Source: Polychytrium aggregatum
Taxonomy: Eukaryota > Chytridiomycota > Chytridiomycetes > Polychytriales
Reading direction: 5' to 3'
Length of the DNA stretch: 64,000 nucleotides
NCBI RefSeq assembly: GCF_025602895.1
Contig: NW_026516339.1
Span: 45,975-109,974, forward strand
Made by a program: the position numbers and the translations under genes. Positions 2,022 through 40,504 of the stretch are shown one piece after another. A model generated the notes under the pieces. That model ran no database searches, was not told the origin of the DNA, and was given only the letters and a program-made list of their open reading frames with translations. Within the stretch, counting starts at the first letter, position 1. Every line of letters begins with the position of its first letter.

Positions 2022-2975
2022 ATGGCTGAGCCTGCTGCACCCCCGGCAGATCTCAATGCGTATCTGGCGCGCATGGAGGAGCGTATGAACGCCCTCATGA
2101 CCCAGAACGCTGCTCTCCATCGTCAGATCCAAGATCTGCAAGCTCCCGCCGCCGCTCCCCGCCAGGTCTACCAGGTGAACAAGCCCAAGGAGTTCCTAGG
2201 TTCCCGCGATGAAACGACGGCCTTCCTCGCCCAGTGCCACCTGGTTTTCCTCGCCGATCCTGCCTTCTTCGCGCCCGAGCGCCAGAAGGTCCTGTACGCC
2301 ACCTCCTTCCTCCGCGGTGAAGCCTTCAAGTGGTACGAGGCCGCCTTCTACATGGCCAACCGCTTCCCGGCTTCCTTCGCGGATTTTGAAGTTGCCCTCA
2401 AGTCGACCTTCGGTGAGGACACGGCCTCCTCGCAAGATAAGGCCTTGAACGACCTCAAGCGCTTGGTCCAGCTCAAGTCCTGCCAAGCCTTCGCCACCCG
2501 CTTCGTCCAGCTCGCCGCCCGCGTCCAGACTGATGAACCCACCAAGATGCACTTCTTCAAGGAGGGTTTGAAGTCTGAGGTCAAGTTCCACCTCATCGGT
2601 CTCCGCCCCGCTCCCGCTTCCCTGCCTGAGTTGATCAAGGCAGCGGTCGAGTACGACGATGCCCTCCATCGTCTCAAGATCTCCTCCCGTTCCCAACCTC
2701 CTCCTCCTTCTTCTCGCTCTGCTCCCCATCACCACCATTCTCCCGCGCATGTTTCTTCTTCCTCCTCTTCTGCACCCACTCCCATGGACCTTGACTCTGT
2801 CTCGGTCCGCCCTGCTAAGCTCTCCGACGTCGAGAAAAAGCGACGTCGTGAGCAGGGTCTCTGCCTGTACTGCGGGGAAAAGTCTTGTCCCGGCAGTCGC
2901 GATGTTCAGCAGTGCCCGGTTCTGGTCAAACGGAACTCGGGAAATGCCCACAGCCGAGCAGCACCTCGCAAGTAA
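2022..2975 (+). CDS. gag: A1 Gag
   Basis: Structural capsid protein of 317 residues, taken from the ATG at 2022 (MAEPAAPPADLNAYLARMEE). An N-terminal coiled-coil-like stretch (about residues 10-40) is followed by a retrotransposon capsid domain (about 60-210; FLAQCHLVFLADP, FKWYEAAF, FKEGLKSEVKFHL) and a Pro/Ser/His-rich linker. The nucleic-acid knuckle is unusual: it reads C-x2-C-x4-C-x8-C (CLYCGEKSCPGSRDVQQC), so the normal histidine is replaced. The stop codon lies in a hairpin loop and pol follows in the -1 frame. Confidence 0.92.
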   Translation: MAEPAAPPADLNAYLARMEERMNALMTQNAALHRQIQDLQAPAAAPRQVYQVNKPKEFLGSRDETTAFLAQCHLVFLADPAFFAPERQKVLYATSFLRGEAFKWYEAAFYMANRFPASFADFEVALKSTFGEDTASSQDKALNDLKRLVQLKSCQAFATRFVQLAARVQTDEPTKMHFFKEGLKSEVKFHLIGLRPAPASLPELIKAAVEYDDALHRLKISSRSQPPPPSSRSAPHHHHSPAHVSSSSSSAPTPMDLDSVSVRPAKLSDVEKKRRREQGLCLYCGEKSCPGSRDVQQCPVLVKRNSGNAHSRAAPRK

Positions 2976-2994
2976 GCGAGGTGGTCTGTTCGGC
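2939..2994 (+). promoter_or_regulatory. A1 -1 frameshift signal over the gag stop
   Basis: Slippery heptamer GGGAAAT (2939-2945; G|GGA|AAT in the gag frame), a 7-nt spacer, then a hairpin. The inner stem is CACCTCGC/GCGAGGTG (2962-2969, 2976-2983) with loop AAGTAA that contains the gag stop. Outer pairs are GCCGA (2953-2957) with TCGGC (2990-2994), plus CAG/CTG. The pol frame is open through the structure in the -1 register. Confidence 0.85.
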
Positions 2995-5900
2995 GATACG
3001 AACATCTTCCCCCTCTGACTCGTCATTATCGGACGATAAGCTTCTTCTTCCGGCCACCCTTGTCGTCATGAGTCTTTCTGGCCCGGTCTCCATCTCCCTT
3101 TCTGTCTTTATTGATGATGGATGCACCGCTCTTGCCCTCATTGATCCTGCCTTTGCGGATCTCCATAAACTCTCTCTTATCCCTCTTTCTACTCCCTACT
3201 CCGTTTCCCTTGCTGATGGTTCTTCGGCCGGTTTCATTCGTTTCCAAACCGTTCCTGTGACGTTGACCATTGGTTCCCACACCGAGTCGATTTCTTTTCT
3301 TGTGACTCGACTCTCCACCACTCCCATCACTCTTGGTCTTCCCTGGATGCGCTTGCATAATCCAGTTGTCAATTGGAAGTCCCTCTCCCTTTCGTTCTCC
3401 GATCCCTCTTGCCTTGCTGATGGACACATCCTCGCGGATGTCTCTGCTTCCTCCTTGGACACTTCGTCCCCTTCCGGCTATTCGCCTCCCCCTTCGGGCA
3501 CTTCGCCTTTGACTCCTCCCTCCGGTCCTTCCCTTACACCGGTTCCCTCCTTTGGCACTTCGCCTTCCCTTTCTTCCCGCCTTGACTCTGCTTCGCTTTC
3601 TGAAGAGCCAACGGCTTTATCTTCGCCCGACATTGAGCTCGTTAATGCGGCGAGTCTTCTCCGTCTTGCACGGGAAGACAAGCTCGACATTTTCGCTGCC
3701 CAAATGGATATCCGTCCTCCTTCGCCGGAGACGTATCCTACGGTGTCGATAAGGTCCGTGCTCACGACGAAGGTGTATGCCGAGTCTGGCACCCCTGTTG
3801 ACTCTCGAGGTGTCCCGCTCAAATACAATGAGTTTGGCGACGTTTTCAGCCTCAAGTCTGACCCTCCTTCTTCCTTGCCTCCTCACCGTCCGTATGACTT
3901 GTCTATTGAGTTTGTACGGACCGAGGATGGAAAGGAACCTCGTTTGCCAAAGCCGGGGAAAGTCTATCCTTTGTCCCCGGCCGAGGAATCTGCTCTTTCG
4001 GAGTATCTGACCAACGCCCTCGCACGTGGTTGGATCTCCAAATCCTCTTCTCCCGTTGGTGCTCCCTGCTTCTTCGTGAAGAAGCCCAATGGTGGTCTTC
4101 GCCTTTGCGTCGACTACCGGGGCCTCAATGCCATCACGAAGAAGAACCGCTACCCTCTTCCCCTCTTCCAGGATCTTCTGGATAAACTTTCTTCTGCCCG
4201 CGTCTTCTCACACCTTGACCTTCCTGATGCTTACCACTTGGTTCGTGTCAAGAAGGGCGATGAGTGGAAGACTGCTTTTGTTTGCAAATCTGGCTCTTAC
4301 GAGTACAATGTTATCCCCTTTGGTCTTTCGAATGCCCCCGCTGCTTTTCAGTTTTTTATGAACGACATCTTCTCGGACCTCCTTGGTGTCTGTGTTGTCA
4401 TTTATCTTGACGACATCCTGATCTTCTCAAAAGATCCCCTGGAGCATGAGGAGCATGTTAAGCTTGTTCTTTCTCGCCTTCGTGAACACTCTCTTAAGGT
4501 CAATCCGGCCAAGTGTTCTTTTGACCTTTCTGAAGTTGACTTTCTCGGCATGATCATTTCTGCCGATGGCATTAAAATGGACCCTGCCAAGGTCGAGGCC
4601 GTTTCCCTTTGGCCTGTTCCCTCTTCTGCTCGCGACATCCAAGTTTTTATTGGTTTCGCAAACTTTTACCGCCGCTTCGTCAAGGACTTTTCCGCACTTG
4701 CTCGTCCTTTGACTTCACTCACCACCAAATCCTCCACCTTCTCTTGGTCTCCCGAGGCCCAAGAGGCTTTTGATTCTCTTAAACGTTCATTCACTTCCGC
4801 ACCTATTCTTCGTTACTTTGATTTCTCCAAACCCGCTGTCATCGAGCCCGATGCTTCTGACTTTGCTCTGGGTGCCGTCCTTTCCCAGTTTGACCCTGAC
4901 GGCGCTCTTCACCCCGTTGCTTTTCACTCTCGGCAATTCCGTCCCGCCGAGGTGAATTATGACACCCACGACAAAGAGCTCCTTGCTATTGTCGATTCCT
5001 TTACTGCCTGGCGTCATTACTTGATGGCTGCCGACCCCGATCATCCCACTCTTGTTTTCTCTGATCACCAGAACCTCACCCGGTTCACTTCCGCTTCCCA
5101 ACTTTCTCGCCGCCAGTTCCGGTGGGCCCAATTCCTTTCTGATTTTGCTTTTCGCATTTACCACCGCCCTGGTCGCCTCAACACCAAAGCCGATGCTCTC
5201 AGTCGCCGTTCTGACTTTGAGATAAAGCCTGGTGACTCCCTCCACTCCACCAACTTCCTTCAGCTGTTCGAGTCTATTTCTCTCGACAGCATCACCGTTA
5301 TCGGCTCGAACCCCGATTTTCTTTCCGAGATTCGAGCTGCCACCCTTTCTTGTTCCCTTCTTTCTGACTTCAACGCCAAACGTCTTGATGGCGATTACTC
5401 CTTCCGTGACGGTCTCCTTTACTTTAAAGACCTGATCGTTGTCCCTTCCCCCGAGCTCCAGCTCAAAGTGTTTGAGCAACGTCACTGCTCCGCTGCCGCT
5501 GGTCACTTTGGTCTTGCCAAGACCGTTGAGCTCATCTCCCGGGACTTTCACTGGCCCCGGCTTCGTAAGTCTGTGCGTCGCTTCATTGCTAATTGTGAAG
5601 CGTGCCAGCGAGCCAAGCCGTCCCGTCACTCCCCTTATGGTTTACTTCACCCTCTCCCCGTTCCTTCCGAACGTTGGTGGGACCTGTCGATGGACTTCAT
5701 CACGGATCTCCCACCTTCGAACGGCTTTGACTCCATCTTCGTGGTTAAGGACCGCCTGTCCAAACAAGCACACTTTGTGCCCACCACGAAGACGGTTACA
5801 GGCGAGCAAACCGCCGAACTCTTCCTCTCCCACATCTTCCGCTTGCATGGTTGTCCCCGGTCTATTGTTTCGGACCGAGGAACTCAGTTTACTTCGGCCT

Positions 5901-6575
5901 TCTGGAGGCGCTTCAATGAGCTTCTGAAGACGAAGATTTCCCTTTCTTCTGCCTTCCACCCCGAGACCGACGGTTCGACCGAGGTTCTCAACCAGGTCAT
6001 CGAGCAGTATTTGCGTATCCATTGCAATTACCTGCAAGACGACTGGACCCTTCACCTTCCCCTTGCCGAGTTCACTTACAACAACTCGGAAAACACCTCC
6101 ACTGGCATGACTCCCTTCTTTGCAGTCCATGGCCATCACCCCATTTTTGATCCCTCCATCATCCGTGATCCTTCTGTTGTGCCCTCTGCCGAAGAACGTG
6201 TCGACCGACTTCAGACCGTTCTCGAGGATCTCAAGGCCAACCTCCGGGTTGCCCAAGAGTCCTACACTTTGCAGGCCAACAAATCCCGTCTCCCCACTCC
6301 CGACATCTCCGTTGGCGACCTCGTTTTTCTTGATCGTCGCCACATCCGCACCCTTCGTCCCTCCAACAAGCTTGATCAGAAAAAGCTTGGCCCCTTTAAA
6401 GTTCTTCGCCGCATCAACCCCGTTGCCTTTGAACTTAAACTCCCTTCCACACTCAAAGTCCACCCCGTCTTTCATGTATCCCTCCTTGAACCCCGAACGA
6501 AGGACATTGTTCCCGAGTTCACCCAACCCGAACCTCCACCCATTCTTGTTGACTCCCAGGAAGAGTTTGAGGTCG
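2945..6575 (+). CDS. pol: A1 Pol, N-terminal part (protease to integrase)
   Basis: Read in -1 frame from the slip site. Order: aspartic protease with the odd active site IDDGCT near 3111 (D-D-G instead of D-S/T-G), reverse transcriptase (VDYRGLNAIT, YLDDILIFS near 4405), RNase H (IEPDASDFALG), integrase with the HHCC finger (C-x2-C in NCEACQRAK) and the DDE core (SMDFITDLP, VSDRGTQFTS, HPETDGSTEVLNQ), then a GPY/F-type C-terminal region. B1 is inserted at 6576 after EEFEV, just before the chromodomain, whose code resumes at 12498. Without the insertion the frame is intact. Confidence 0.93.
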
Positions 6576-6960
6576 TGTGATGATCATGCACGTTGGGAAC
6601 ACGTGTGGACTGCTGCGCGTGATGCACCGTGAGTCATGTTTGTTTGTCTTGGCGTGTATTCCCTGATTGGCTGGCGCCGATGACTCTTACTTCGCCTCCG
6701 ACTGCGCTGTGCTTCGCCCCTCTCTCTAGCAGCTCCGCCTCCCTCGCACCCCCATCTCGTCCCTCGTTTGTCGCTCCACCCCTCTCGCCCACTTTCGCCC
6801 TTCGGTTTCCCTCTTGGCTATAAAGCCCCTCCTTTCTTGCACCCATTTTGTATCTGCAGTTCGAACAACACTTGTTGTTATCTGATAAGTCGTAATATAG
6901 CTTATCGTTGTTCGCCAAGCACCTGGTCGTCCAGTGTCGTTGCTTGTCGTGGTCCTCACA
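6576..6960 (+). repeat. B1 5' LTR (385 bp)
   Basis: TGTGATGATCATGC at the start, GGTCCTCACA at the end. TATAAAG begins at 6819; AGTTCGAACAA, complementary to the primer site, begins 39 bp later at 6858. Confidence 0.95.
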
Positions 6961-6973: not shown

Positions 6974-7080
6974 CCCTCTCTCTGTCTGACCACCTGCTTG
7001 GCTGAGGCTTCGTTGCTGCCCTCATCCTTCTATTCTCTGTTGTCTTCCCTGCATCCTCGCTCCCCACTTTCAAAGCCCAC

Positions 7081-8064
7081 ATGGACCAACTCCAGGCCCA
7101 AATCGTTGCCCTCCAGGAGGAACTGGTTCTCCTCCGGACCACACATTCTTCCGCCGCCCCACAGCTCCCGCACATGCCGACCCCGGACAAGTTCGACGGC
7201 ACCAGGTCAAAGTTCCGCCCCTTCGTCAACCAGTGCCGCCTGCTCATGATGCTCCAGGCATCCAGGTTCCCGTCCGAGCAAGTCAAGGTGGGTTACGTCT
7301 TGAGTTTGCTCACTGGTCCGGCCCTCCAGTGGGCGACTCCCTTGATCGAGTCGAACGATCAAATCCTGCACTCGTTCGACTCGTTCATGGAACGCTTTCG
7401 CCAAGCGTTTGACGATCCCGACCGCACCCACACTGCCGAGCTGCTCCTTTCCTCCATGGCACAGGGCAACCGCTCGTGCATGGATTATGCCTCAGAGTTC
7501 CTCCGCGTTGCCGCCGACCTTCCCTGGAACGACGAAGCCAAGATCTCCGCCTTCCGCCGTGGCCTGTCGAGGGAGATCAAGCAGCGCCTCTCCTTCATCG
7601 ACCCTCTCCCTCTCCGCTTGGTCCCGTTCGTCGAGCGTTGCCTCAAGATCGATGCACGCATCATCGAGCTCAACAACGAGCTCCGAAACACTGGCCCTGT
7701 TTCCTTCGGCACCCAGGCCTTCAACTCCCGCACCCCGTCCTTCCAGCCGCCCGCCCAGGAGCCTCCGGTTCTCTACTCCGAGCCGATGCAGATCGACGCC
7801 GCCGTCGTCAGCCGCCTGACCCCCGAGGAGAAGAACCGCCGCTTCCAGGAGCGCCTCTGCTTCCGCTGTGGCAAGCCCGGCCACGTCGCCAAGTCCTGCC
7901 CCCTCAAGTCCGGCTCCCGTGCTCCCGCCTCTGGTTCCCGCTTCCCCGGCTCCCGTCCTCAGGCTCCCGGCTCCCGTCCCCGTTCGAAGGTTGTCCGAAC
8001 CATCGTCTACGATGATGGTGAGGAGGAACACTTCGAGTCGGGAAACGACCAGGCCCAGATCTAA
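7081..8064 (+). CDS. gag: B1 Gag
   Basis: 327-residue Gag. The N-terminal helix (MDQLQAQIVALQEELVLLRT) looks coiled-coil forming. The capsid domain is at about residues 35-210 (KFRPFVNQCRLLMML, LTGPALQWATPL, FRQAFDDPDRTHTAE, FRRGLSREIKQRL). A canonical CCHC knuckle (CFRCGKPGHVAKSC) is near residue 260, followed by a Gly/Ser/Arg/Pro tail. The stop codon TAA (8062-8064) lies within the 5' arm of an 11-bp hairpin. Confidence 0.95.
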   Translation: MDQLQAQIVALQEELVLLRTTHSSAAPQLPHMPTPDKFDGTRSKFRPFVNQCRLLMMLQASRFPSEQVKVGYVLSLLTGPALQWATPLIESNDQILHSFDSFMERFRQAFDDPDRTHTAELLLSSMAQGNRSCMDYASEFLRVAADLPWNDEAKISAFRRGLSREIKQRLSFIDPLPLRLVPFVERCLKIDARIIELNNELRNTGPVSFGTQAFNSRTPSFQPPAQEPPVLYSEPMQIDAAVVSRLTPEEKNRRFQERLCFRCGKPGHVAKSCPLKSGSRAPASGSRFPGSRPQAPGSRPRSKVVRTIVYDDGEEEHFESGNDQAQI

Positions 8065-8082
8065 GTGGAGGCTTAGATCTGG
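8040..8082 (+). promoter_or_regulatory. B1 -1 frameshift signal over the gag stop
   Basis: Slippery heptamer GGGAAAC (8040-8046, in frame as G|GGA|AAC), an 8-nt spacer, and a perfect 11-bp stem CCAGATCTAAG/CTTAGATCTGG (8055-8065, 8072-8082) with loop TGGAGG. The gag stop is inside the 5' arm. The pol reading frame is open from the heptamer onward in -1 register. Confidence 0.88.
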
Positions 8083-11000
8083 AGCCGTCTCCCCTTCCTC
8101 CAGAAGCAAGCGTCGATGGTAAGGAGCATGAGGTAAGTGTCGAACGCATGGCTATGTGTGGAATGATCAATGTAGTCGGTGGTGGATCGCACTCTGTCAA
8201 ACCCGCCTCTTCTAAGGGCACATCTGGCTCCCAGATGTCTTTGACAGAGCTCCCGATCTCCACACCACCTGCGAACTTGGTCATCTGCTCGAACCATGCT
8301 GCCGACACTGATCTCTGCTCCGAGCCTTCTTCGTGCGTCTCGTCGATTTCTTCGTCTTCTCCCGTTTTCTCCGCTTCTCTTGTTCTCCCTTCTGGTCGCT
8401 CCCTCTCTTGCCAACTTCTCGTCGATTCTGGTGCCTCCGGCAACTTCATCGACGAGAGCTTTGTTGACCGCTTCTCGGTCCCCCTCGTTTCCAAATCCAC
8501 TCCCCTCCCTGTCCAAGGTGTCGATGGCCAGCCACTTTCTTCCGGCCCCATCACTTTTGAGACGGAACCCCTCAAGATTGTTCTTGGGGACTACACTCAA
8601 CACCTTTCCTTTGATGTCATTAAGTCTCCCCACCAACCTGTTATCCTTGGCTATCCCTGGCTGCAGTCCATCGAACCCAGGTTCCACTGGGCTCGTGGAC
8701 TCCTTTGCCTTCCCCGTCCTGCAAACCACATCCTCAAGGTTGTGGATGCCTCTTCCCTCCCTTCCGTTTCTTCCGTTTCTCCTTCTCCCCTTCCTCTTGT
8801 TGGCGACACACCCAATGTTTTCCCTCGTGCCTCTACCGACACCACTGTGGTGCTCGCTTCTTCGCCTCGCACCGTTTGTACTCGCGAAGATGATCAGAAT
8901 AAAGTGATCGCTCAACGTTATTCTGATTGTGTTCCGAGTGAGGTGCCCTGTTCCTGTGCTGCTCGTCCTGGTCCCTCCGGTCTCGTCTCCGTCCGTCCTG
9001 GTCTCCCCGGTCCCGTTGCTCCCAGCCCCGCTCCTGTCCGTGTCCAAGCGATCAGGTACAAGTCGTTGGAGCAGTCCGTCCTCGACACACAGTCTAGCCC
9101 CGACCCCCTGACTGTGTTCCAAGTCCTCGTCCTTCCTGCCACCGATCCGGATCCGACGCCCCTCTCGACGTCGATCCCCGAGGAGTACAAGTCGTTTGGC
9201 TCAGTCTTCTCGAAGCAGGAAGCCGATTCGTTGCCCCCGCACCGGACGTACGACTGCCCGATCGACCTGGAGCCCGGCAAGACCCCCAAGTTCGGACCGC
9301 TCTACTCCCTGTCAGAGCCCGAACTCAAGGCCCTTCGTGAATACCTCGACGACAACCTCGTCAAAGGGTTCATCCGTCCTTCGTCCTCTCCCGCCGGTTC
9401 TCCGATCCTTTTCGTCAAGAAGAAGGACGGCTCTCTGCGTCTCTGCGTGGACTATCGCGCATTGAACACGATCACGGTCAAGAATCGTTACCCCTTACCG
9501 TTGATCAATGAGATGCTGGACCGAGTCCGGGACGCGAAGGTGTTCACGAAGCTGGACCTCCGCGGGGCCTACAACCTGCTGCGTATCCGCGCAGGCGACG
9601 AGTGGAAGACGGCCTTTCGCACTCGTTACGGCCAGTTCGAGTACTTGGTGATGCCCTTTGGACTCACCAATGCTCCGGCCACCTTCCAGCACTTCATCAA
9701 CGATGTCCTTCGTGATGAACTGGACAACTTTGCGATTGCCTACCTTGACGACATTTTGATTTACAGCGCTGACCCCACTCAGCATGCAAATCACGTCAAG
9801 CAGGTCCTGGCCAAGCTCCAGGCTGCAAAGTTGTACTGCAAGCTGGAGAAGTGCGAGTTCTCCAAGGACAAGGTCTCATTCCTCGGCTACGTCATCTCGC
9901 CCAAGGGTATCGAGATGGAACGAGCAAAGCTCTCCGCCATTGTCGACTGGCCCGTCCCCCGCAATGTCTCCGACCTTCGCTCCTTCATTGGGTTCTCGAA
10001 CTTTTACCGTCGCTTCATTGACGGATATGCCAAGATCGCCGGTCCGCTCACGCTCCTGTTCAAGAAGTCCCAGGTCTTCCGCTGGTCCCCCGACGCCCAC
10101 AAGGCTTTCCAGTCCCTCAAGGAAGCCTTCGTCTCCGAGCCCGTCCTTGCGCACCCCGACCCATCCAAGCCCTTTGTCGTGGAGTCTGATGCCTCAGACT
10201 TTGCGATCGGATGCGTCCTGTCCCAGCGCGGCTCCGATGGCCACCTGCACCCGTGCTCCTTCCACTCCCGCACGCTCATGGATGCTGAACGCAACTACAG
10301 CATCTATGAGAAGGAGCTCTTGGCCATCAAGGAGGCTTTCGAGGTCTGGCGACACTACCTCGAAGGTGCCCAACACCCAGTCCAAGTCCTTACCGACCAC
10401 AAGAACTTGGAATACCTGGCGTCGGCCCGCATCCTCAACCAGCGACACGCCCGGTGGTCGCAGTTCCTGTCTCGGTTCGACCTCCGGATCCAGTACCTCC
10501 CCGGTCCAAAGAACGGCAAGGCCGACGCTCTCTCCCGCCGCCCGGACTACGTCCCTCCGTCCGCACCTGTGTCCAAGGAGCCTCCCCCGTTGCTGCCACC
10601 TTCGTCGTTCGCCTGTGCCGTCCGTCGCTCCTCGGATGCAAGTTCCACTCGCCCTGTGGACTTGCTCAAGCTCATTGCCGAGGAGCAACCCAAGGACCCG
10701 TCCCTGGACCAGCTCCGCAACGATCCCAAGTATGTCCTGAAGGATGGTCTCCTCACCTTCATGGACAAGATCGTTGTGCCCGAGTCGTGTCGAGTCCCCG
10801 TCCTCAAGTCATGCCACGATCCTGTCGCTGTTGGACATCCTGGCATTCGGCGGACTCGGGCACTGATCTCGAGGCAGTTCTGGTGGCCCTCAATCCGCAA
10901 GGATGTCCAGGCTTATGTCTCGACGTGCGACACTTGTGCACGCTCGAAAGTCCCTCGACATAAGCCGTTTGGATACTTGCAGCCCCTCCCGACGGCATCG

Positions 11001-12107
11001 CGACCCTGGTCTCTGGTGACGATGGACTTTATCACCGACCTCCCCGAGTCCAACGGCAAGACTTGCATCTTTGTCGTCGTCGATAGCCTGACCAAGATGG
11101 CCCACTTCCTTCCCTGTCGGTCCCTCCCAAGTGCCGAGGAAACAGCGTCGCTGTTCCTCGACAACATCTTCCGTCTCCACGGTCTCCCGGACAACATCGT
11201 CTCGGACCGAGGAAGCCAGTTCACCTCGCGGTTCTGGCAGGCCCTGTGCTCAGAACTCGGCATCAAGACCAGTCTGTCCACGGCGTTCCACCCCCAAACC
11301 GATGGACAGACTGAGCGGGTCAACCAAGTCATCAACCAGCATCTCCGCTGCTACACCTCGTACCAGCAGGATGACTGGGCGATGCTGCTCCCGCTCGCCG
11401 AGTTCTCATACAACAACCTCGAGCACACCTCGACCAAGGCCTCCCCGTTCCTGGCGACTTACGGCTTCAACCCTCGATTCGAGTCTCCGGTCCTTCCTTC
11501 CAGCCTCGATGTCCCCTCCGCGACCGACCGAGTCGAACACCTTCAGCACAACTTGGCGTTGCTGAAGGAGAACCTCGAGAAGGCCAAGGCGGACTACAAG
11601 CGCTTTGCGGATGCCCACAAGTCCGACGCTCCCAAGTTCGCTCCTGGCGATCAAGTCTGGGTCCTAACACGCAACATCAAGACCACCCGTCCAAGCAAGA
11701 AGTTGGACTACCAGCGCATCGGACCCTACAAGATCGTCGAAGCCATCGGTTCCCTCGCCTTCCGCCTCGACCTTCCCAAGGATCTCAAGATCCATCCGGT
11801 GTTCCATGTCTCCCTCCTTGAGCCCCACAAGTCGAACACCCTCCCCGGCCGCATCCAAGACCCTCCTCCGCCAGTCCGCGTCGACGACCACTTGGAGTAT
11901 GAAGTCCAGGAGATCCTCGACTCCAAGCTGGTCCGCGGTAAGTTGAGCTATTTCGTTGATTGGAAGGGCTACTCGACTGATCATCGCAGCTGGGAGCCCG
12001 CCAACTACGTTAACGCTCCCGACAAGATAGCCGACTTCCACCGCCGGTACCCCGACAAGCCTGGACTTATTGTTCGCAGGAGTGGCCGTAGTTTGGGGAG
12101 GGGATGA
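8046..12107 (+). CDS. pol: B1 Pol (protease, RT, RNase H, integrase, chromodomain)
   Basis: Read by -1 frameshift from 8046; the first internal ATG is at 8148, giving 1319 residues, which are used for numbering. Protease DSGAS is near residue 94, reverse transcriptase near 400-580 with YLDDILIYS near 531, and RNase H from about 675 (ESDASDFAIG). The integrase HHCC zinc finger is near 890-930 (CDTCARSK). The DDE core is near 960-1060 (MDFITDLPES, VSDRGSQFTS, HPQTDGQTERVNQ). The chromodomain is near 1250-1305 (EVQEILDSKLVRG, SWEPANYVN). All key residues are present. Confidence 0.95.
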   Translation, partial: RPGPDLSGGLDLEPSPLPPEASVDGKEHEVSVERMAMCGMINVVGGGSHSVKPASSKGTSGSQMSLTELPISTPPANLVICSNHAADTDLCSEPSSCVSSISSSSPVFSASLVLPSGRSLSCQLLVDSGASGNFIDESFVDRFSVPLVSKSTPLPVQGVDGQPLSSGPITFETEPLKIVLGDYTQHLSFDVIKSPHQPVILGYPWLQSIEPRFHWARGLLCLPRPANHILKVVDASSLPSVSSVSPSPLPLVGDTPNVFPRASTDTTVVLASSPRTVCTREDDQNKVIAQRYSDCVPSEVPCSCAARPGPSGLVSVRPGLPGPVAPSPAPVRVQAIRYKSLEQSVLDTQSSPDPLTVFQVLVLPATDPDPTPLSTSIPEEYKSFGSVFSKQEADSLPPHRTYDCPIDLEPGKTPKFGPLYSLSEPELKALREYLDDNLVKGFIRPSSSPAGSPILFVKKKDGSLRLCVDYRALNTITVKNRYPLPLINEMLDRVRDAKVFTKLDLRGAYNLLRIRAGDEWKTAFRTRYGQFEYLVMPFGLTNAPATFQHFINDVLRDELDNFAIAYLDDILIYSADPTQHANHVKQVLAKLQAAKLYCKLEKCEFSKDKVSFLGYVISPKGIEMERAKLSAIVDWPVPRNVSDLRSFIGFSNFYRRFIDGYAKIAGPLTLLFKKSQVFRWSPDAHKAFQSLKEAFVSEPVLAHPDPSKPFVVESDASDFAIGCVLSQRGSDGHLHPCSFHSRTLMDAERNYSIYEKELLAIKEAFEVWRHYLEGAQHPVQVLTDHKNLEYLASARILNQRHARWSQFLSRFDLRIQYLPGPKNGKADALSRRPDYVPPSAPVSKEPPPLLPPSSFACAVRRSSDASSTRPVDLLKLIAEEQPKDPSLDQLRNDPKYVLKDGLLTFMDKIVVPESCRVPVLKSCHDPVAVGHPGIRRTRALISRQFWWPSIRKDVQAYVSTCDTCARSKVPRHKPFGYLQPLPTASRPWSLVTMDFITDLPESNGKTCIFVVVDSLTKMAHFLPCRSLPSAEETASLFLDNIFRLHGLPDNIVSDRGSQFTSRFWQALCSELGIKTSLSTAFHPQTDGQTERVNQVINQHLRCYTSYQQDDWAMLLPLAEFSYNNLEHTSTKASPFLATYGFNPRFESPVLPSSLDVPSATDRVEHLQHNLALLKENLEKAKADYKRFADAHKSDAPKFAPGDQVWVLTRNIKTTRPSKKLDYQRIGPYKIVEAIGSLAFRLDLPKDLKIHPVFHVSLLEPHKSNTLPGRIQDPPPPVRVDDHLEYEVQEILDSKLVRGKLSYFVDWKGYSTDHRSWEPANYVNAPDKIADFHRRYPDKPGLIVRRSGRSLGRG

Positions 12108-27360: not shown

Positions 27361-27380
27361 AAGGAGGGGAGACGACAAAC

Positions 27381-31130: not shown

Positions 31131-33205
31131 ATGGCGAGCAACTCCTTGTCATGCACATCGTAGCGACTCTCGTTGGGCAGCAGCTTTCGGGAGTGGAAGG
31201 CTACGGGGCGTAGCACATCCTCCCCGTCCGGCTGCGAGAGTACTGCTCCGATGGCAAAGTCGGACGCATCAGTCTCGACCACAAATGGGGCATCCATCCT
31301 GGGATGTGCAAGGACGGGTGCGGACGTAAAGGCTTGTTTGAGTGAGTCGAATGCATGCTGTGCCTTGGGTGTCCACGCAAAGGGGATGTCCTTGCGAGTA
31401 AGTTCGTTGAGCGGGATTGCCACGGAGGAGTATGCGTTGATGAATTGTCGGTAGAAATTTGCAAATCCCAGGAACCGTTGCACTCCCTTGACCGAGTGGG
31501 GAGGCTTCCATTCGATAACAGACTGGACTTTGGCCGGGTCCATGCTGATACAGCCTGTAGATACGACATAACCAAGGAATTCGACCTCTTGGCAATCGAA
31601 GTGACACTTTTCGAGCTTGCCGAAGAGCCCGTGGCTTCTGAGGCGAGAGAGGACTTCCCGGACGTGTTGATCGTGTGTCTTCTGTGATGGCGAGAACACC
31701 AAAATGTCATCCAAATAGACGACCACATAGGTGTCTAGGAGGTCACGGAACACATCGTTAAGGAAATGCTGAAACACGGCGGGTGCATTCGTGAGCCCAA
31801 AGGGCATCACTAAGTACTCGAAGAGGCCGAACGGGGTGCGGAAGGCTGTTTTCCATTCGTCGCCTGCACGGATGCGTACAAGGTTGTACGCACCGCGCAG
31901 GTCGATTTTCGAAAACACCTTTGCCCCGCTCAGGCGCTCGAGCAGTGCGGGAATCAGTGGAAGCGGATACCGGTTCCGAACTGTGATCTTGTTCAGGCTT
32001 CTGTAGTCAACACACAAGCGCAGTGTGCCGTCTTTCTTCCGAACGAATAGGACAGGGGAAGCCGCGGGAGACTTGGACGGGCGAATGAATCCCTTCGCAA
32101 GATTCTCGTCCAAGTACTCCCGTAGTGCTTTCGTTTCTTCCACCGACAGATTGTAAATGGGACCGAAAGGGGGGGACTTGTCGGGGACGAGGTCGATGCT
32201 GCAATCGTATGGGCGGTGATCGGGCAGTCGGTCTGCCTTTCCCTTACTGAACACATCGGCAAAGTCACCGTACTTCTCCGGCAATGTAGCTGGAGGATTG
32301 CTTCCTCCAGTTGGGTGAGAGGCGGCAACAACGATGGGAGCCGTCGGGATATCGACGGTCCCGGCCGCCCAGTCGACTGTGGGATTGTGCTGGTGAAGCC
32401 AAGGCAAGCCAAGCACAACTGGCGCGTGCGGGCTGGGCATGAGGTCGAGCACGAGGGGCTGCTCGTGGCCGCCGACCGCAATCGTCAGCGGCTCGGTCTC
32501 TTCGGTGATCGTGGGAAGGGCGTGTCCGTCGATGCCTTCCGCAGCCAGTGGCTTGTCTTTGGTGTGGATGGCAAGTCCCACTTCCTTGGCAAACGTGGGA
32601 TCGATCAAGCATGCGGAGCATCCGCTGTCGACCATGGCGAGCGTTGGGGCCACGAGGTCACCTTGTTGGAGCTGGATGGGGATAAGGAACAGCTTGGAGT
32701 CTTGGCGGCGTGCAATCATTGACAAAGCGGCAACCATATGCACGCAGTCGGGGTCGGGCGTGTCGCCACCACCATGCGGGGGGCATGTGGTGGGGGCGGT
32801 GTTGGCTGTGAGGGGCGTGCTGCCAGGTGGGGGAGCATGTGGGGGGACTGGGGCATGGGAAGTCTGCTTTGGGAAGTGGATGGGCAGGTTGCTGGACTCG
32901 AGGATGGGTGGGTGCATGAGGTAACGGAGGTCCACCTTGGCCCGAGGGCAAGTGGTAGCGGCGGTGGTCGAGGTGTTTGAGAGCGGCGCATGCTCTTGGA
33001 CGGGTCGAATGGTCTGGGGCTGGGGGGCGGCCTGGAAGAACGAGGCGGGGCTGGGTTGCGGGATGGGTACGGGTCGGGGAGTTAGGGCAGGTTGGGCCTT
33101 GGGATGGGCGGTAGCAATTGGTCTTTGAGGTTTGGAAAAGACTTTATTGCTGACATTGTCGGTCAGCGCCAGAGCAGCGGCCCTTAGAGGCTCTGGCGCA
33201 TGTCG
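31131..33205 (-). CDS. pol: F Pol (protease, RT, RNase H part)
   Basis: Minus strand, -1 frame from 33205; first internal ATG at 32935. A Pro/Thr-rich start precedes the protease (AMVDSGCSACLID), then reverse transcriptase (VDYRSLNKITVRNRYPLPLI, YLDDILVFS near 31715) and RNase H (VETDASDFAIGAVLSQ), ending at DKELLAI where the E LTR begins. Integrase and beyond are outside the window. Confidence 0.92.
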
Positions 33206-33211
33206 TTTCCC
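33166..33211 (-). promoter_or_regulatory. F -1 frameshift signal over the gag stop
   Basis: Minus strand: GGGAAAC (33211-33205), a 5-nt spacer, perfect 10-bp stem GCGCCAGAGC/GCTCTGGCGC (33199-33190, 33175-33166) with a 14-nt loop that contains the gag stop TAA. The -1 frame is open through the structure. Confidence 0.87.
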
Positions 33212-33734
33212 GACTCGGTGTTGGTTCGGCGGTTGGGGCAGGCCTTGACAAAGTGTCCGGCCTCCCCGCAGTACAGGCAGAGATTATTGGCTCTGCGATG
33301 TCTGCGTTCGGCTTCGCGGGAGGCCGAACCGGAGCCGGGGACTTGAGCCACCAAGGGGTCGTCTTGGGCTTCCTTGAATCCTGCGGGTGGAGGCAGCTCG
33401 AGGTTGGGACGGCGAGGGCGGCGGTCCTCCTCGAGACGGCGCTGGTAGATGCGGGCGTCGAGGCGAGTCGCCACTTCGATGAGCTCTTCAAGCGTGGCAG
33501 GCAGCTCGCCTCGAATCGCGAGCATGTCTTTGACGTCGGTGTTGAGCCCGCGGTAAAACTGGGCGATCAGAGCCTGTTCGTCCCAGTGGATCTCCGCTTG
33601 GAGGAGCTGGAACTCAGAGGCGAAGATCGCAACAGACCGCTTGCCTTGGGTGAGGCGCATGATAGCGCCTTCAGACCGGACGACGGAGTGCGGGTCGCCA
33701 AAACGAGCTTCGAGCTGGCGAACGAAGGTGGCAA
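33184..33734 (-). CDS. gag: F Gag, C-terminal part
   Basis: After the G1 insertion Gag continues TFVRQLEARFGDPHSVVRSE, then FYRGLNTDVKDMLAI, and a normal CCHC knuckle (CLYCGEAGHFVKAC), ending SGNDMRQSL-stop. Joins in frame to the N-terminal part at 44674-44895 (255 residues in total). The apparent start further upstream (33846) is inside the G1 LTR and is not real. Confidence 0.9.
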
Positions 33735-34043
33735 TGTAGGAGATGGTATCTCCGACGCTGTGCTGCGCGTACTGCGCGTACTGCGCGGCGCAGTGGGTCG
33801 TGACCTGTGCTGCGCTTTGCGTTTTCACGCACCGCAGGCAGGCCACCGCAGGGTATACCTGCGGGTTGCCCCCGTTCCCCCCGTTTGTCTGGAGTTCGGT
33901 TTTATCGTGAATAAACGTAAGTGCTCCCCGAGCTCACCCGTCCGCTAGAGTAGCCTAGCACCGCCCTGTTCTGCCCCGTCCTGTCTTGTCTTGTACCCCC
34001 TCCCTCCCCGTCTTGCCCCAACGTCCCAGTAGTGGACGTTACA
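33735..34043 (+). repeat. G1 5' LTR (309 bp)
   Basis: Starts TGTAGGAGATGG and ends AGTGGACGTTACA. Contains three close copies of a GTACTGCGC-type motif near 33768-33795. No clear TATA box. Confidence 0.94.
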
Positions 34044-34061: not shown

Positions 34062-34165
34062 TCGTCTTGTTTTCGTCCTGTTTGTCCTCTTTCTAGATCC
34101 TCAAGCTGGATCCCGCCTCTCTTGCCGACCGACTCTCCTCTCTGTCCCTGGAGCCTGCCCCTGCC

Positions 34166-34987
34166 ATGAGCAACCCCCGCCCACTTCCGGAAGCCTTCCT
34201 CAAGACCTTCCGTGCCCCAGTGTTTACTGGGAAGAGCCGCTCCTCCTCGGTGGAGGACTGGCTGCAGCAACTCGAGGACTACCTCGATGCTGCCCAAGTC
34301 GCCCCCACCCACCACATCGTCGCCGCCAAGCTCTGCTTAAAGGACCAGGCGTACCGTTGGTACCGCCGCCAAGGGTTCGACGAGCAGAGCGAAGGTGTGT
34401 TTGACGACTTCAAGGACCGCCTCCGTCGCCGCTTCGGCAGCCCCAATGCTGAACTCATTGCCCGTGACAAGCTATACTCTCTCGTGCAGCGTGGTTCTGT
34501 GACCCGCTACATCGAGGAGTTTGAAGACCTCTCCTCCCAGATTGAGGAGCTGGGCTCTGCTGATGCGATGTACCTCTTCCAGAAGGGCCTCAAGCCCAAG
34601 ATCAGAGAGTACATCGCCAGCAACCCTGATGCCCGCAAGTCCCTGGACGTGATGATGGACGTTGCCGAGAACCTCGACAACGTCCAGTACCATGGCCGCC
34701 AGTTCTACCCGCAGCTGGCAGGCGGCCATCGGTCTCATCACGTCCCAGCCCGTCCGCCTCGCCCGGCCCCGCCCGCAAGACCCATGCCTGAGCCCATGGA
34801 CGTTGACGTCAACGCCATGGAGGCTCGTGGCCCTCCCCGCTCCCGGTTCCAGCAAGCTGCCACTGTCTCCCCCAAGGACAGACAGAAGCAGGAGGACCTC
34901 CGCCATGGTTCCTGCTTCTTCTGTCACCGACCGGGACACCAGGCCAAGGAGTGCCCCATGAAGTCGGGAAACGGCCGACCCTACTAG
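34166..34987 (+). CDS. gag: G1 Gag
   Basis: 273 residues: capsid domain ([53 protein letters not shown]), then a Pro/Arg-rich linker with a PMDVDVN motif and a CCHC knuckle ([14 protein letters not shown]). Ends ...SGNGRPY-stop. The stop is in the frameshift hairpin. Intact and same translation as in G2. Confidence 0.94.
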
Positions 34988-35009
34988 GTGGCTCTGGAGC
35001 CCTAGTAGG
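34966..35009 (+). promoter_or_regulatory. G1 -1 frameshift signal over the gag stop
   Basis: GGGAAAC (34966-34972, in frame), 7-nt spacer, 9-bp stem CCTACTAGG/CCTAGTAGG (34980-34988, 35001-35009) enclosing a small inner stem GCTC/GAGC. The gag stop TAG (34985-34987) is in the 5' arm. Pol is open in -1 frame. Confidence 0.87.
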
Positions 35010-36268
35010 AGACCAACGCCGTGGATTGCTCAATGCAGTCCACGCGTCTCCAGAGGAAGTTCACCTCGCCCCCTCCCCCGAAGGAGAAACAAACCAAGTG
35101 TTGTGCGTCGTGCGAGAGGTGCATGGTGGCGCAAGCCGCCTGCCTCTCCACGAACGTGAAGAGAAAACCAAAATTGAAAACCAAAACAAAAAAGAAAATC
35201 AAGAACCCTTGAGGGACAGGACCGCCTGTGCCCTCACCCCTGTCAAGTCGTGTGTGTCGGATGCTTCCGACATGTGTCCGCAAGCCGTGGACGTCGTGTG
35301 CAATGGCGTGCTGACGCCGCAGGCCCCCGCAATGGCCGAACCCTATCCAAAATGTCCGAGTGGCCGTGATGAAGCCAACCAAGACCAAGTGTCGCCCGTT
35401 CCCCCAAGTCAAGTCATGGTGCAGGAGGCTGTGCAGGAGGACCATGAAGAGTCCCTGCTGTACCTCCCTGCCACCGTCCAAGGTCACACCGTCCGAATGA
35501 TGGTGGACTCTGGAGCAAGCTGCAACTTTGTCAGCAGACGCTTGCTCCAGGAGCTCAACATACATGCAACCAAGAAGAAGTCGCCGATGAGTGTGGCGCT
35601 TGCAGACGATCGTGTGCAGCAGTGCACACACCAAGTGGTCCTGCGAGTGGCCCTCCATCCCAAGTACCATCCTGTCCTGTTGTTCCAAGTGATCGACACC
35701 AAGTTCGATGCCATCCTCGGCATGAGCTGGCTTGCTCGTGCCGAGCCGACTCCAGTCGTCGACTGGAAAGGCCGCACTGTCCGTGTTGGCCCTGACATTG
35801 TCCTGCAGGGCATGGCCTCACCCAACATGCCACCTCTCCTCTCAGCCATGCAATTCAAGAGGCTGATCAAGAAGGACACGTCGTTCCTCTGTGTCGTGCG
35901 TGAGGTCGACGACACCGACCAAGCCGGTCCCGGTCCCCCGCCTGTGGTGACCAAGCTGCTCGACGAGTACAAGGACGTATTCCCCGACCAGTTGCCACAA
36001 TGCCTGCCACCCCAACGCACCGTCGATCATCGCATCGACATCGAACCAGGCTCGTCGCCTCCGTCAAGACCGACGTACCAACTGTCGCTGACGGAGATGG
36101 ACGAACTCAAGCGCCAGTTGGATGACCTCCTCGCCCATGGGTTCATCCGCCCGAGCCAGTCACCGTATGGTGCACCAGTGCTCTTTGTCAAGAAGAAAGA
36201 AGGTGATCTCAGGATGTGCGTCGACTATCGCGCACTAAACAAACAGACCATCAAGAACACCTACCCGT
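34972..36268 (+). CDS. pol: G1 Pol, N-terminal part
   Basis: -1 frame from the slip site: a long linker, aspartic protease ([13 protein letters not shown]), then the start of reverse transcriptase ([37 protein letters not shown]). Stops at the G2 LTR; the code resumes at 41741. The two parts sum to 3912 nt, the same as G2 pol. Confidence 0.93.
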
Positions 36269-36586: not shown

Positions 36587-39500
36587 TTAAGAAGGCTTCC
36601 TGCGAGGAGCCCTGCGTGTGCTCTTTATTTGGGGCTCCTCGAGGTGTTTACCGTATTTACTCAGCTCCTCGGGTGCATGGGACAAGTCCTCCAGTGTTTG
36701 CCATGTGTTGCCCGAGTGTGGGTAACCAACCCACTTGACATAAAACCGAAGTGACCCATCAGCCACTTTCTTGTGCCTCACGATCCTTTCGACTTCATAT
36801 TCTTGAGTATAGTATTGTCCGAGGTCGTCTTCCAGTGGTGCGTCGTCCGGGACACCTTCGTCGGCGTCGGGGAACTGTGCTGGACTGCGGGTCGTGTGGC
36901 GACGCAGCTTGGACACATGGAAGACAGGATGGAGCTTGCTTCCAGGTGGCAAGTCCAACAGGTAGTTGAGGGGACTGGGTCGGGCCGCTATCTTGAACGG
37001 TCCTCGGTACTTGGGCAACAACTTCTTTGACTGGGCTTCGGGGACCTTGATGTTGTCGGCGTCCAGGTAGACAAGGTCTCCAACTTCAAAGGAGACATCC
37101 TGGTGTCGGCGGTCGTAGTACTTCGCCATCACTTGTTGCGCATCCGTGAGCGCGTCGGCGATCATCTTGTGTCGGACTTGATGATCTTTGACAAAGGCAC
37201 TTGGTTTGGGAGGCAATCCAGCCGTGGACTCGGTCAGTGTCAAGGAGGTGGGAACATCAGGCTGGAATCCGTAGAGCGCCTCAAAGGGGCTCAAGCCAGT
37301 TGTGCTCGACTTGGCGGTGTTGTATGCAAACTCTGCATGACTCAGCTGTATGTCCCAGTCGTCTTGGCTGGTCGAGGCGTATGTCCTCAGGTATTGCTCG
37401 AGGGTGCGGATCGTCCGCTCGGACTGTCCATCCGTTTGTTGGTGGTGCGAGGTTGACATGTTCAGCTTGGTGCCGAGATGGTCGAACAGACTTGTCCAAA
37501 ACAAGGAGGTGAATCGGGGGTCTCGATCACTGACGATGGACTTTGGGAGGCCGTGGTGCTTGAACACATGCTTGAAGAACAGCAGTGCAAGGTCAGGCGC
37601 GGAGCATGTCGTCTGGCACGGCACAAAGTGTGCCATCTTGCTGAACCTGTCGACAAAGACAGCGATTGCATCGTGGTCCAACTTGGTCGTCGGTAGATGC
37701 GTGATGAGATCCATGGACATGCTGGTCCAGGGGCGGTCGGGAACAGGCAGGGGTTGCAGCAATCCTTGCTCTCGGGTCGTGCGTGACTTGACCATCTTGC
37801 AGGTATGGCAGGACTCGATGTACTTCTCGACGGTGCGCTTCATTCCAGGCCAGTATGCGACTTTGGCCAGTCGGTCGTATGTCTTCTCGACTCCAAAGTG
37901 TCCAGCGAGGGGCGAGTCGTGGACCTCTTGGAGCAACTTGGTCTTCAACGACGGAATGTCCGGCACACAGACACGGCTGTCCTTCTTCAGGAGGAGCAGG
38001 CCATCACGCACTGTGTACTCGGATGATTCGTCGTCCTTGGGGAGCTTAGACACCTTTCGGAACAGTTCTCCGAACTGTTTGTCGTTGGCGATGTTGTCTC
38101 GGACAACATCCAGCATCGTGTTGTCGACACTGACAGTCGACTCGTACAGTGACGCCAATTGGTAGTCGGGGCGTCGGGACAGTGCGTCAGGCACCACATT
38201 GAGTTTGCCTTTCTGGTATACAACCTCGTAGTTGTACTCGGCGAGGAACTCCATCCATCGCGCTTGGCGTCGGCTCAGGTTCTTCTTGGTGTCGAGGTAA
38301 CGCAGTGACTGGTGGTCCGTCACAATCTTGAAGGGCTTGGCGGTACCGTGGAGGTACACTCGGAACTTCTGCAGCGCGTAGATGATCGCAAGCTGCTCCT
38401 TCTCGTGCACGGGATAGTTGATCTCGTGTTGGGACAGTTTGCGCGACTCGAAGGCAACGGGCCTTCCCTCCTGCATCAAAACAGCTCCCACCGCAAAGTC
38501 GGAGGCGTCGGTGTGCACGGAGACATCCGTGTTCGGGTCGAACACAGCGAGGACAGGAGCGTTCGTCAAGGCGTGCTTGAGGGTCTCGAACGCTTGGCGT
38601 TGTGGGTGGTCCCACACGAAGGGGCACTCTTTGCGGAGTAGGTCTGTGAGTGGACCGGCAGTGCGCGCCAGATCGGGGATGAATCGGCGGTAGTAGTTGA
38701 CGAGACCGAGAAACGACTGCACGTCAGAGACGCATGCGAGCGGCGGCCACTCGACCACAGACTTGACCTTGGCGGGGTCGACTTCGATTCCTCTTCCTGA
38801 GACAACGTGTCCCAGGAACGGGACTTGATTCTTGAAGAACTCACACTTGGACAGTTTGGCATACAACTTGTGCTCGCGTAGCTTGGCCAGCACGCGGGCG
38901 ACATGACCTTCATGGGTCGCTTCATCCTTGCTGTACACAAGGATATCATCCAGGTACACGATGACAGAGTTGTCGAGCTCTTGGCGGAACACATCGTTCA
39001 TCAGCTGCATGAACGTGGCAGGTGCGTTCGTCAATCCGAACGGCAGCACTAGGAACTCGTACAGTCCGTAGCGAGTCCTGAAGGCGGTCTTGTGGACATC
39101 ATCCTCGTGGATGCGGATCTGATGGTAGCCTGAGCGGAGGTCTATCTTGCTAAAGACCTTTGCTCCACTCAGACGATCCATCAACTCGTCGATCCTGGGC
39201 AACGGGTAGGTGTTCTTGATGGTCTGTTTGTTTAGTGCGCGATAGTCGACGCACATCCTGAGATCACCTTCTTTCTTCTTGACAAAGAGCACTGGTGCAC
39301 CATACGGTGACTGGCTCGGGCGGATGAACCCATGGGCGAGGAGGTCATCCAACTGGCGCTTGAGTTCGTCCATCTCCGTCAGCGACAGTTGGTACGTCGG
39401 TCTTGACGGAGGCGACGAGCCTGGTTCGATGTCGATGCGATGATCGACGGTGCGTTGGGGTGGCAGGCATTGTGGCAACTGGTCGGGGAATACGTCCTTG

Positions 39501-40498
39501 TACTCGTCGAGCAGCTTGGTCACCACAGGCGGGGGACCGGGACCGGCTTGGTCGGTGTCGTCGACCTCACGCACGACACAGAGGAACGACGTGTCCTTCT
39601 TGATCAGCCTCTTGAATTGCATGGCTGAGAGGAGAGGTGGCATGTTGGGTGAGGCCATGCCCTGCAGGACAATGTCAGGGCCAACACGGACAGTGCGGCC
39701 TTTCCAGTCGACGACTGGAGTCGGCTCGGCACGAGCAAGCCAGCTCATGCCGAGGATGGCATCGAACTTGGTGTCGATCACTTGGAACAACAGGACAGGA
39801 TGGTACTTGGGATGGAGGGCCACTCGCAGGACCACTTGGTGTGTGCACTGCTGCACACGATCGTCTGCAAGCGCCACACTCATCGGCGACTTCTTCTTGG
39901 TTGCATGTATGTTGAGCTCCTGGAGCAAGCGTCTGCTGACAAAGTTGCAGCTTGCTCCAGAGTCCACCATCATTCGGACGGTGTGACCTTGGACGGTGGC
40001 AGGGAGGTACAGCAGGGACTCTTCATGGTCCTCCTGCACAGCCTCCTGCACCATGACTTGACTTGGGGGAACGGGCGACACTTGGTCTTGGTTGGCTTCA
40101 TCACGGCCACTCGGACATTTTGGATAGGGTTCGGCCATTGCGGGGGCCTGCGGCGTCAGCACGCCATTGCACACGACGTCCACGGCTTGCGGACACATGT
40201 CGGAAGCATCCGACACACACGACTTGACAGGGGTGAGGGCACAGGCGGTCCTGTCCCTCAAGGGTTCTTGATTTTCTTTTTTGTTTTGGTTTTCAATTTT
40301 GGTTTTCTCTTCACGTTCGTGGAGAGGCAGGCGGCTTGCGCCACCATGCACCTCTCGCACGACGCACAACACTTGGTTTGTTTCTCCTTCGGGGGAGGGG
40401 GCGAGGTGAACTTCCTCTGGAGACGCGTGGACTGCATTGAGCAATCCACGGCGTTGGTCTCCTACTAGGGCTCCAGAGCCACCTAGTAGGGTCGGCCG
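36587..40498 (-). CDS. pol: G2 Pol (complete)
   Basis: Minus strand; about 1303 residues from the slip site, or 1310 from the ATG at 40519, which overlaps gag. Protease (VDSGASCNF), reverse transcriptase ([22 protein letters not shown]), RNase H ([15 protein letters not shown]), HHCC integrase ([12 protein letters not shown]), DDE core ([34 protein letters not shown]) and a chromodomain ([29 protein letters not shown]). No frame break. With B1 and B2, one of three apparently competent elements here. Confidence 0.95.
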
Positions 40499-40504
40499 TT
40501 TCCC
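40461..40504 (-). promoter_or_regulatory. G2 -1 frameshift signal
   Basis: Mirror copy of the G1 signal: GGGAAAC at 40504-40498, 7-nt spacer, stem at 40490-40482 and 40469-40461, gag stop in the first arm. Confidence 0.87.

Follow-up and report, generated by a model that had tools for sequence, protein, structure and literature searches.

The 64,000-nucleotide (nt) stretch of Polychytrium aggregatum DNA analyzed here (assembly GCF_025602895.1, contig NW_026516339.1, forward-strand positions 45,975 to 109,974; hereafter the window) carries eight gag/pol junctions of Ty3/Gypsy retrotransposons, A, B1, B2, C, D, F, G1, and G2, which by sequence comparison belong to six divergent families. Each junction is very probably a −1 programmed ribosomal frameshift (PRF) signal that makes the Gag-Pol protein of its element, with the gag stop codon lying inside the predicted RNA structure downstream of the slippery heptamer. 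The features of the sequence, the reading frames, the B-type covariation, and the conservation in relatives were observed directly; the slipping itself we infer. A preliminary description of the window had proposed such a shared architecture, which the present analysis supports and strengthens with the covariation and with homologues from other sources.

An independent rescan of the window for heptamers of the pattern X_XXY_YYZ, preceded by a long 0-frame that stops soon afterwards and followed by an extended open −1 frame, returned seven sites, all among those already named, and the eighth, C, was recovered by a separate search for GGAAAAC; heptamers, strands, and positions were as first described (Table 1). 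In all families gag terminates 1 to 9 codons past the heptamer. The −1 frame is open for 1213 (A), 1355 (B), 266 (C), 856 (D), 703 (F), 435 (G1), and 1305 codons (G2), and its earliest ATG lies 108 to 306 nt past the heptamer, in agreement with the earlier statement that pol is open in this frame and has no start codon nearby. Because the C frame ends at 266 codons, this copy has probably been interrupted. A protease-like DTGA motif, read by eye, is kept in the −1 frame of C downstream of 14280 (−).

Pfam searches placed a Ty3-type gag (Retrotrans_gag, Ty3_capsid) before, and reverse transcriptase (RT)/RNase H after, the sites tested (gag alone was scanned for C). A, B, D, and G also gave an integrase match, and two of them, B and G, a chromodomain. 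The Ty3 capsid gag, the RT-RNase H-integrase order, and the chromodomain are all present in B, G, and the pol at 27426–30074; among the open reading frames (ORFs) scanned, A gave no Chromo match, D ends at the integrase zinc-binding domain, and F ends at RNase H. The divergence of the families is evident from Gag identities of 20–36% in 13 of the 15 family pairs (BLAST), B and G being alignable over 36 residues only and A and G giving no match, and from pol identities of 37–61% in all ten pairs of A, B, D, F, and G.

The heptamers of A, B, D, F, and G are canonical, and the chance of an in-frame canonical heptamer within the gag/pol overlap is 0.0055–0.041 per family, with a product of ∼1.4e-9 for these five families. 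The stop lies in the 5′ arm of the stem in B, C, and G, in the loop in A and F, and at the stem foot in D, as originally reported; the chance that the first stops of all six families fall within the structures is ∼9e-5 at the stop frequency of the window, under a null that ignores selection for an early stop. Perfect stems starting 4–9 nt downstream were counted at 17,260 window positions as background, where ≥9 base pairs (bp) were found at 47 positions, ≥10 bp at 25, and ≥11 bp at 11. The corresponding stems at the sites measure 11 bp (B and D), 10 bp (F), 9 bp (G), 6 bp (C), and 4 bp (A), so that A and C are unremarkable by this measure; none of the 82 other XXXYYYZ heptamers of the window has a stem of ≥9 bp, the best reaching 6 bp. 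Fold-energy z-scores are −5.7 (A), −4.2 (B), −3.8 (D), −3.3 (G), −2.7 (C), and −2.4 (F), and an equal or better energy was obtained in 0/200 shuffles of A, 2/200 of C, and 5/200 of F. The spacer is 4–8 nt long at 12 of the 13 sites measured, the exception being A, with 16 nt to its perfect inner stem. The spacer of 4–8 nt first given for all families requires amendment, as it applies to A only through the imperfect outer stem, and the C stem has an internal mismatch (perfect over 6 bp).

The P. aggregatum genome (64.7 Mb, 418 contigs) was searched for relatives. The motif TCGGGAAAY occurs at 1369 places, versus 737 for the reversed pattern; the first 100 were taken and 68 of these read, of which many are unrelated; the gag-end sites come from A, B, F, and G and from two further B-type families, B′ and B″, that are new. 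Gag searches returned relatives of F (55–68% identical), D (62%, and 52–62% for D3), and C (76–97%), the D3 relatives carrying GGATTTT and one F relative GGGAAAA. A site census, anchored on heptamer motifs and therefore blind to heptamer losses, covered the copies among the matches listed. All 17 pairs were present in 15/15 copies of A and all pairs counted in 9/9 of C, 11/11 of D, and 16/16 of G, while 8 of 11 F copies had all ten pairs and three had nine. Of the 64 distinct B-type places, 41 keep all ten pairs, 20 keep eight in the bulged B′ form, two keep nine, and one keeps six. These counts are not independent, as the copies are mostly near-identical. The stop was at its usual place in 61 of the 64 B-type places, 11/11 D, and 11/11 F copies, with stop identity varying within all three groups; of the B-type exceptions, two copies had lost the stop and in one it was shifted by an insertion. 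Losses seen by eye outside the census were a B copy with a heptamer one base short (L132) and three loci without the site (L103, L150, and L152). The further copies called for in the preliminary description, as far as listed, keep heptamer and stem with few exceptions.

In two B copies (L009 and L010) the gag stop TAA has become CAA, and the next 0-frame stop lies four codons on, in the 3′ arm of stem 1; this loss is a natural test of stop position. Many element copies look young: among the B Gag matches, 40 of at least 115 listed tie for the top score at 100%, and the matches listed for A and G, given below, are near-identical.

Relatives from other sources extend the pattern. A protein search with the B Gag returned 64 homologues, and in 49 of them a G-N, E-N, or K-N pair that would fit the heptamer codons stands exactly six residues before the end; ten lack such a pair within their final 14 residues and five place it at another distance, all counts being drawn from protein sequences, in which codons are not visible. 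The three of the 64 with an organism name (P0051, P0059, and P0065) lack this tail. In an alignment of the B Gag with 11 chosen homologues the Asn and a near-end Gln are invariant. Seven contigs with such elements (L160–L166) are found in two cyanobacterial assemblies (AVDCRST_MAG81 and Trichormus MAG ERR2144891) and would be eukaryotic, probably fungal, contaminants. In all seven the stop lies 18 nt past the heptamer (GGAAAAC in four, GGGAAAC in three) and within the predicted structure, and the −1 frame runs open over 343 to 508 codons, reaching the locus end in six; the gag of L166 is broken, with just 29 codons open in the gag frame ahead of the site. On these data the frameshift site appears to be kept both in related families of the genome and in the seven contigs. 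The tails of 23 A Gag homologues, viewed by eye, included some similar endings and others that differ, and no count is claimed. The sole homologue found for the G Gag is from P. aggregatum itself and matches at 100% along the entire protein, IMG/VR searches with the G pol and with a Gag alignment gave 10 and 12 pattern matches but no relatives, and an Rfam scan of the window gave no match at the gathering threshold.

Stem 1 was examined by covariation. Nine of the ten B-type sites (B, B′, B″, L160–L164, and L166) align without gaps in one stem register (alignment A2), L165 being left out for a register offset by 3 nt. In ten of the 14 pairs both partners are altered in at least one sequence. 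Pairing is present in 78.6% of cells compared with 64.6% after shuffling, and the covariation of 0.512, compared with 0.232 after shuffling, is reached in 0/500 shuffles; slid registers gave ≤0.199. Since related sequences can beat shuffles without structure, the slid-register control weighs more. One compensated change falls within the stop itself, where TAA of B pairs with U and TGA of B″ pairs with C.

Downstream pairing of the loops would add a second stem at several sites. In G, a perfect 8-bp helix can form between the loop and sequence 38 nt beyond stem 1, a 10-bp hairpin lying between, and the D and B loops pair over 7 and 6 bp, respectively, at 11–14 nt past stem 1; the candidate in C has 7 bp with one G-U. 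Pairing of each loop with its own downstream sequence exceeded that of swapped combinations in all but 0/20,000 permutations over 15 families and 4/20,000 over the ten B-type sites, most clearly in B, B′, B″, D, G, L160, and L161. A subset of 11 families (also 0/20,000) was picked after stem 2 was known and is not relied on. Stem 2 shows in-register changes between B, B′, and B″ and no covariation within D. B, D, and G are predicted to be H-type pseudoknots, with a third hairpin in G, C is probably one, and A and F look like plain hairpins; the hairpin initially described is therefore incomplete for B, D, G, and probably C. The loops of F-type sites hold GGGCC, with GGCCC 55–67 nt past the stem at 6/6 sites (L099, L100, L101, L145, L146, and window 33211 −), and because both motifs are invariant there, stem 2 is not claimed for F. 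All six also keep CAATAAA 13–16 nt past the stem, though several Gag pairs are only 55–68% identical.

A number of observations weigh against this interpretation. The stem/loop borders used in the stem-2 tests were set by hand. Stem 2 is often weak family by family: against shuffled downstream sequence, P was 0.008 (G), 0.011 (B), 0.013 (D), 0.041 (B″), 0.052 (D3), 0.089 (B′), 0.13 (D2), 0.24 (C), and 0.39 to 0.99 (A, F, and the F relatives), and a second scoring of the ten B-type sites gave 0.026 to 0.93. The C helix is thus not significant alone, and in the permutation test another helix scored above it; B has a rival 7-bp hairpin (TCTGGAG/CTCCAGA); and neither the helix listing nor the stem-2 tests yielded a convincing stem 2 in A, F, the F relatives, L163, or L166. 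For stem 1, two of the five measures on A2 are weak, as 11/500 shuffles reach ten doubly changed pairs and 308/500 the observed number of pair types. The compensatory changes that the preliminary description had asked for exceed shuffles in the B-type group only: D and F have one compensated pair each, with covariation matched by 88/500 and 112/500 shuffles, respectively, and stem variation is uninformative in the copies read of A, C, and G. The Gag matches listed for A and G are near-identical (at least 113 matches for A, all 113 listed being 99–100% identical; at least 132 for G, all 132 listed being 100% identical). Finally, C, D3, and L160–L163 carry the non-canonical heptamers GGAAAAC or GGATTTT.

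In the proposed mechanism, most ribosomes would pass the heptamer, unwind the downstream RNA, and halt one to nine codons on, releasing Gag, while a minority would stall against the structure when the slippery codons occupy the P and A sites, shift back by one base, and continue into pol. In B, D, and G the stimulator would be an H-type pseudoknot (with the extra hairpin in G), as it probably is in C; in A and F a long hairpin would serve. On GGAAAAC, by our own reasoning, tRNA-Glu would re-pair with a G-U in the middle. Because the gag stop is inside the structure, a non-slipping ribosome would terminate on melted RNA. By ribosome geometry, placing the gag stop in the A site requires that in B, C, D, and G the 5′ arm of stem 1, at a minimum, has been opened, and so the earlier picture of a terminating ribosome that melts the structure is sound. 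If the structure refolds before the next ribosome arrives, as the SARS-CoV-2 analogy suggests, a steady Gag-Pol fraction would result; a role of stop position in setting the Gag:Pol ratio of these elements, as first suggested, is argued by analogy only.

How much the stop itself contributes is the point on which explanations diverge. Tentatively, and at less than even weight, the stop may be a working part of the device in a large group of fungal Ty3/Gypsy elements, its fixed place selected so that each terminating ribosome resets the structure and holds the Gag-Pol fraction constant as traffic changes, in a convergent or ancient counterpart of the coronavirus arrangement. For most B-type relatives the stop is exactly six codons past the slip codons. 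The alternative, to which we give even weight, is that the frameshifting is real but that nothing functional follows from the stop overlapping the structure, the gag end and the stimulator both being needed near the slip site. The stop distance does vary between families (1 to 9 codons), the structures span ∼30–40 nt, so that a nearby stop tends to land inside, the B copies with a lost or moved stop show that its place is not absolute, and shared ancestry could account for part of the fixed distance. Set against this are the low probability calculated above for six stops of six within structures, subject to the same limit on its null, the recurrence of one distance in 49 of the 64 distant homologues, and the changes of stop identity at a position mostly kept in D, F, and the B-type sites.

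Explanations without frameshifting fare less well. It is improbable that pol is reached by splicing or an internal start, with the stems as by-products of two overlapping coding frames: stems 1 and 2 stay paired while their bases change, which overlapping frames alone do not predict, every overlap contains a frame-compatible heptamer, and the first −1-frame ATG is distant. In favor of splicing is GGTAAGT, resembling a strong 5′ splice site, which follows the junction at ∼8132 (+) in B and also in B′ (L142); this motif may be coding or a mark of spliced RNA. Still more improbable is a structure serving stop-codon readthrough or termination-reinitiation at the gag stop. Mo-MuLV and other retroviruses do use a pseudoknot for readthrough (PMC3835772), but pol here is in the −1 frame and not the gag frame, gag-frame readthrough would meet the next stop after 3–7 codons in four families (B, C, F, and G), though only after 31 in A and 63 in D, and the structure covers the stop instead of following it.

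Stop placement within a stimulator, which the preliminary description regarded as a new principle, has already been described and tested in SARS-CoV-2, where the 0-frame stop is a constituent of Stem 1, five codons downstream, and nearby stops are common in coronaviruses (Bhatt et al. 2021, PMC8168617). In that study, moving the stop by 6 nt left 98% of wild-type frameshifting, moving it by 15 nt left 80%, and removing it left 50%, and weaker initiation partly rescued frameshifting. The chytrid sites resemble the coronavirus ORF1a-1b site in having the stop a few codons on and in a stem, with five codons from heptamer to stop in B and a three-stem layout in G; they differ in their unrelated genes and hosts and in stops that can also lie in a loop, stem 2, or stem foot. 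Retroviral −1 sites (SRV-1, MPMV, JSRV, SMRV, FIV, visna, and CAEV), as tabulated in PMC3835772, have GGGAAAC, a spacer of 4–7 nt, stem 1 of 6–10 bp, and stem 2 of 6–7 bp. The present sites share the heptamer GGGAAAC with these gag-pro and gag-pol H-type pseudoknots and come close to them in dimensions, with a spacer mostly of 4–8 nt, stem 1 of 6–11 bp, and stem 2 of 6–8 bp; unlike them, they belong to fungal Ty3/Gypsy elements, have stem 1 of up to 11 bp in the window, and also use GGAAAAC and GGATTTT.

PEG10 and the PNMA-type (Ma) genes, domesticated from Ty3/Gypsy gag, use −1 PRF with a classical heptamer and a pseudoknot (PMC5009743); they share Ty3/Gypsy descent with the chytrid elements and differ in being animal and domesticated, and the available text of that review contains no stop-in-structure rule. 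Frameshifting by −1 in fungal long terminal repeat (LTR) elements is known as a class from the same review, which cites a 2003 survey where 28 of 51 animal LTR elements had their pol in the −1 frame and the +1/−1 share was less skewed in fungi; no chytrid element, such structure, or stop placement appears in its available text. GGAAAAC, first noted as a variant in C, is indeed present there but is no one-copy oddity, as it recurs in relatives and has been proposed to be the shifty heptamer that directly precedes the ORF1 stop in Fusarium double-stranded RNA viruses; in that report on fusagravirus-like viruses the downstream structure of FpV2 and FpV3 is given as ‘data not shown’ (PMC4881467). 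The Tcn1 clade of chromodomain Ty3/Gypsy elements also occurs in a chytrid (PMC2864245), and it and other fungal chromodomain Gypsy elements are comparable by class. The word ‘frameshift’ is absent from the main text of two surveys of fungal LTR elements (PMC2864245 and PMC3248453), and the literature searched for chytrid cases, available in part, describes none.

Table 1. Features of the gag/pol junctions, in window coordinates
Feature	Position	Strand	Remarks
A gag ORF, stop to stop	1896..2975	+	ends in SGNAHSRAAPRK and the stop; Pfam Retrotrans_gag, Ty3_capsid
A slippery heptamer GGGAAAT	2939..2945	+	
A hairpin	2953..2994	+	outer stem 2953-2961/2986-2994; inner 8-bp stem 2962-2969/2976-2983
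A gag stop TAA	2973-2975	+	in hairpin loop
A pol ORF, −1 frame	2852..6580	+	ORF list, Pfam
B1 gag ORF	7006..8064	+	ORF list, Pfam
B1 slippery heptamer GGGAAAC	8040..8046	+	
B1 stem 1	8055..8082	+	8055-8065/8072-8082; supported by covariation
B1 gag stop TAA	8062-8064	+	within 5′ arm of stem 1
B1 predicted pseudoknot stem 2	8066..8102	+	8066-8071 TGGAGG / 8097-8102 CCTCCA
B1 pol ORF, −1 frame	8022..12107	+	ORF list, Pfam
B2 junction	19273..19335	+	heptamer GGGAAAC 19273-19279; stem 1 19288-19298/19305-19315; stop 19295-19297
B2 predicted stem 2	19299-19304/19330-19335	+	
C gag ORF	14262..15617	−	ends in QENFSA and the stop
C heptamer GGAAAAC	14274..14280	−	0-frame GAA AAC
C stem 1	14236..14267	−	14267-14262/14241-14236, one mismatch, then inner 4 bp
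C gag stop TAG	14264-14262	−	5′ arm of stem 1
C probable stem 2	14210..14253	−	14253-14247 GGAGGAG / 14216-14210 TTCCTCC
D gag ORF	26279..27685	−	ORF list, Pfam
D slippery heptamer GGGTTTT	26285..26291	−	
D stem 1	26245..26281	−	26280-26270/26255-26245; stop TGA 26281-26279 at stem foot
D predicted stem 2	26227..26264	−	26264-26258 TCAGGAG / 26233-26227 CTCCTGA
D pol ORF, −1 frame	23721..26303	−	ORF list, Pfam
F gag ORF	33184..33933	−	only last ∼187 codons match closest F relatives
F slippery heptamer GGGAAAC	33205..33211	−	
F hairpin	33166..33199	−	33199-33190/33175-33166; stop TAA 33186-33184 in loop
F pol ORF, −1 frame	31100..33283	−	ORF list, Pfam
G1 gag ORF	34097..34987	+	
G1 junction	34966..35055	+	heptamer GGGAAAC 34966-34972; stem 1 34980-34988/35001-35009; stop TAG 34985-34987
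G1 predicted stem 2	34992-34999/35048-35055	+	third hairpin 35020-35029/35035-35044
G2 gag ORF	40483..41373	−	ORF list, Pfam
G2 junction	40415..40504	−	heptamer 40504-40498; stem 1 40490-40482/40469-40461; stop 40485-40483
G2 predicted stem 2	40478-40471/40422-40415	−	third hairpin 40450-40441/40435-40426
G2 pol ORF, −1 frame	36587..40663	−	

Over the bases printed, the B2 and B1 junctions are identical. G1 and G2 represent a single family: the G2 junction equals that of G1 over the 80 bases printed and lies within a 100% inverted repeat shared with G1. A later, inverted insertion of G2 splits G1 (33735–44673, with arms 33735-36270/39200-41735 and 36269-39207/41735-44673), which would explain why the −1 frame of G1 is open for 435 codons only. 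The first ∼72 residues of the F gag ORF (33187–33933, −) match short ORFs genome-wide at 93%, many of them beside G copies, and the F element therefore seems to have been cut at its 5′ end by the G1 insertion.

Taken together, these data point to a frameshift architecture that is real and conserved; the kind of device is known, the literature searched holding no description of it for this host group. What appears new is a conserved retrotransposon version of the stop-in-stimulator design with a near-fixed stop distance, and the persistence of that distance across many related elements is its most interesting part. The elements provide a mapped, covariation-supported set of predicted structures and heptamers together with natural variants (a compensated TAA-to-TGA change, stop loss, and GGAAAAC versus GGGAAAC), with which the role of a stop inside the stimulator would become testable outside coronaviruses, in yeast reporters.

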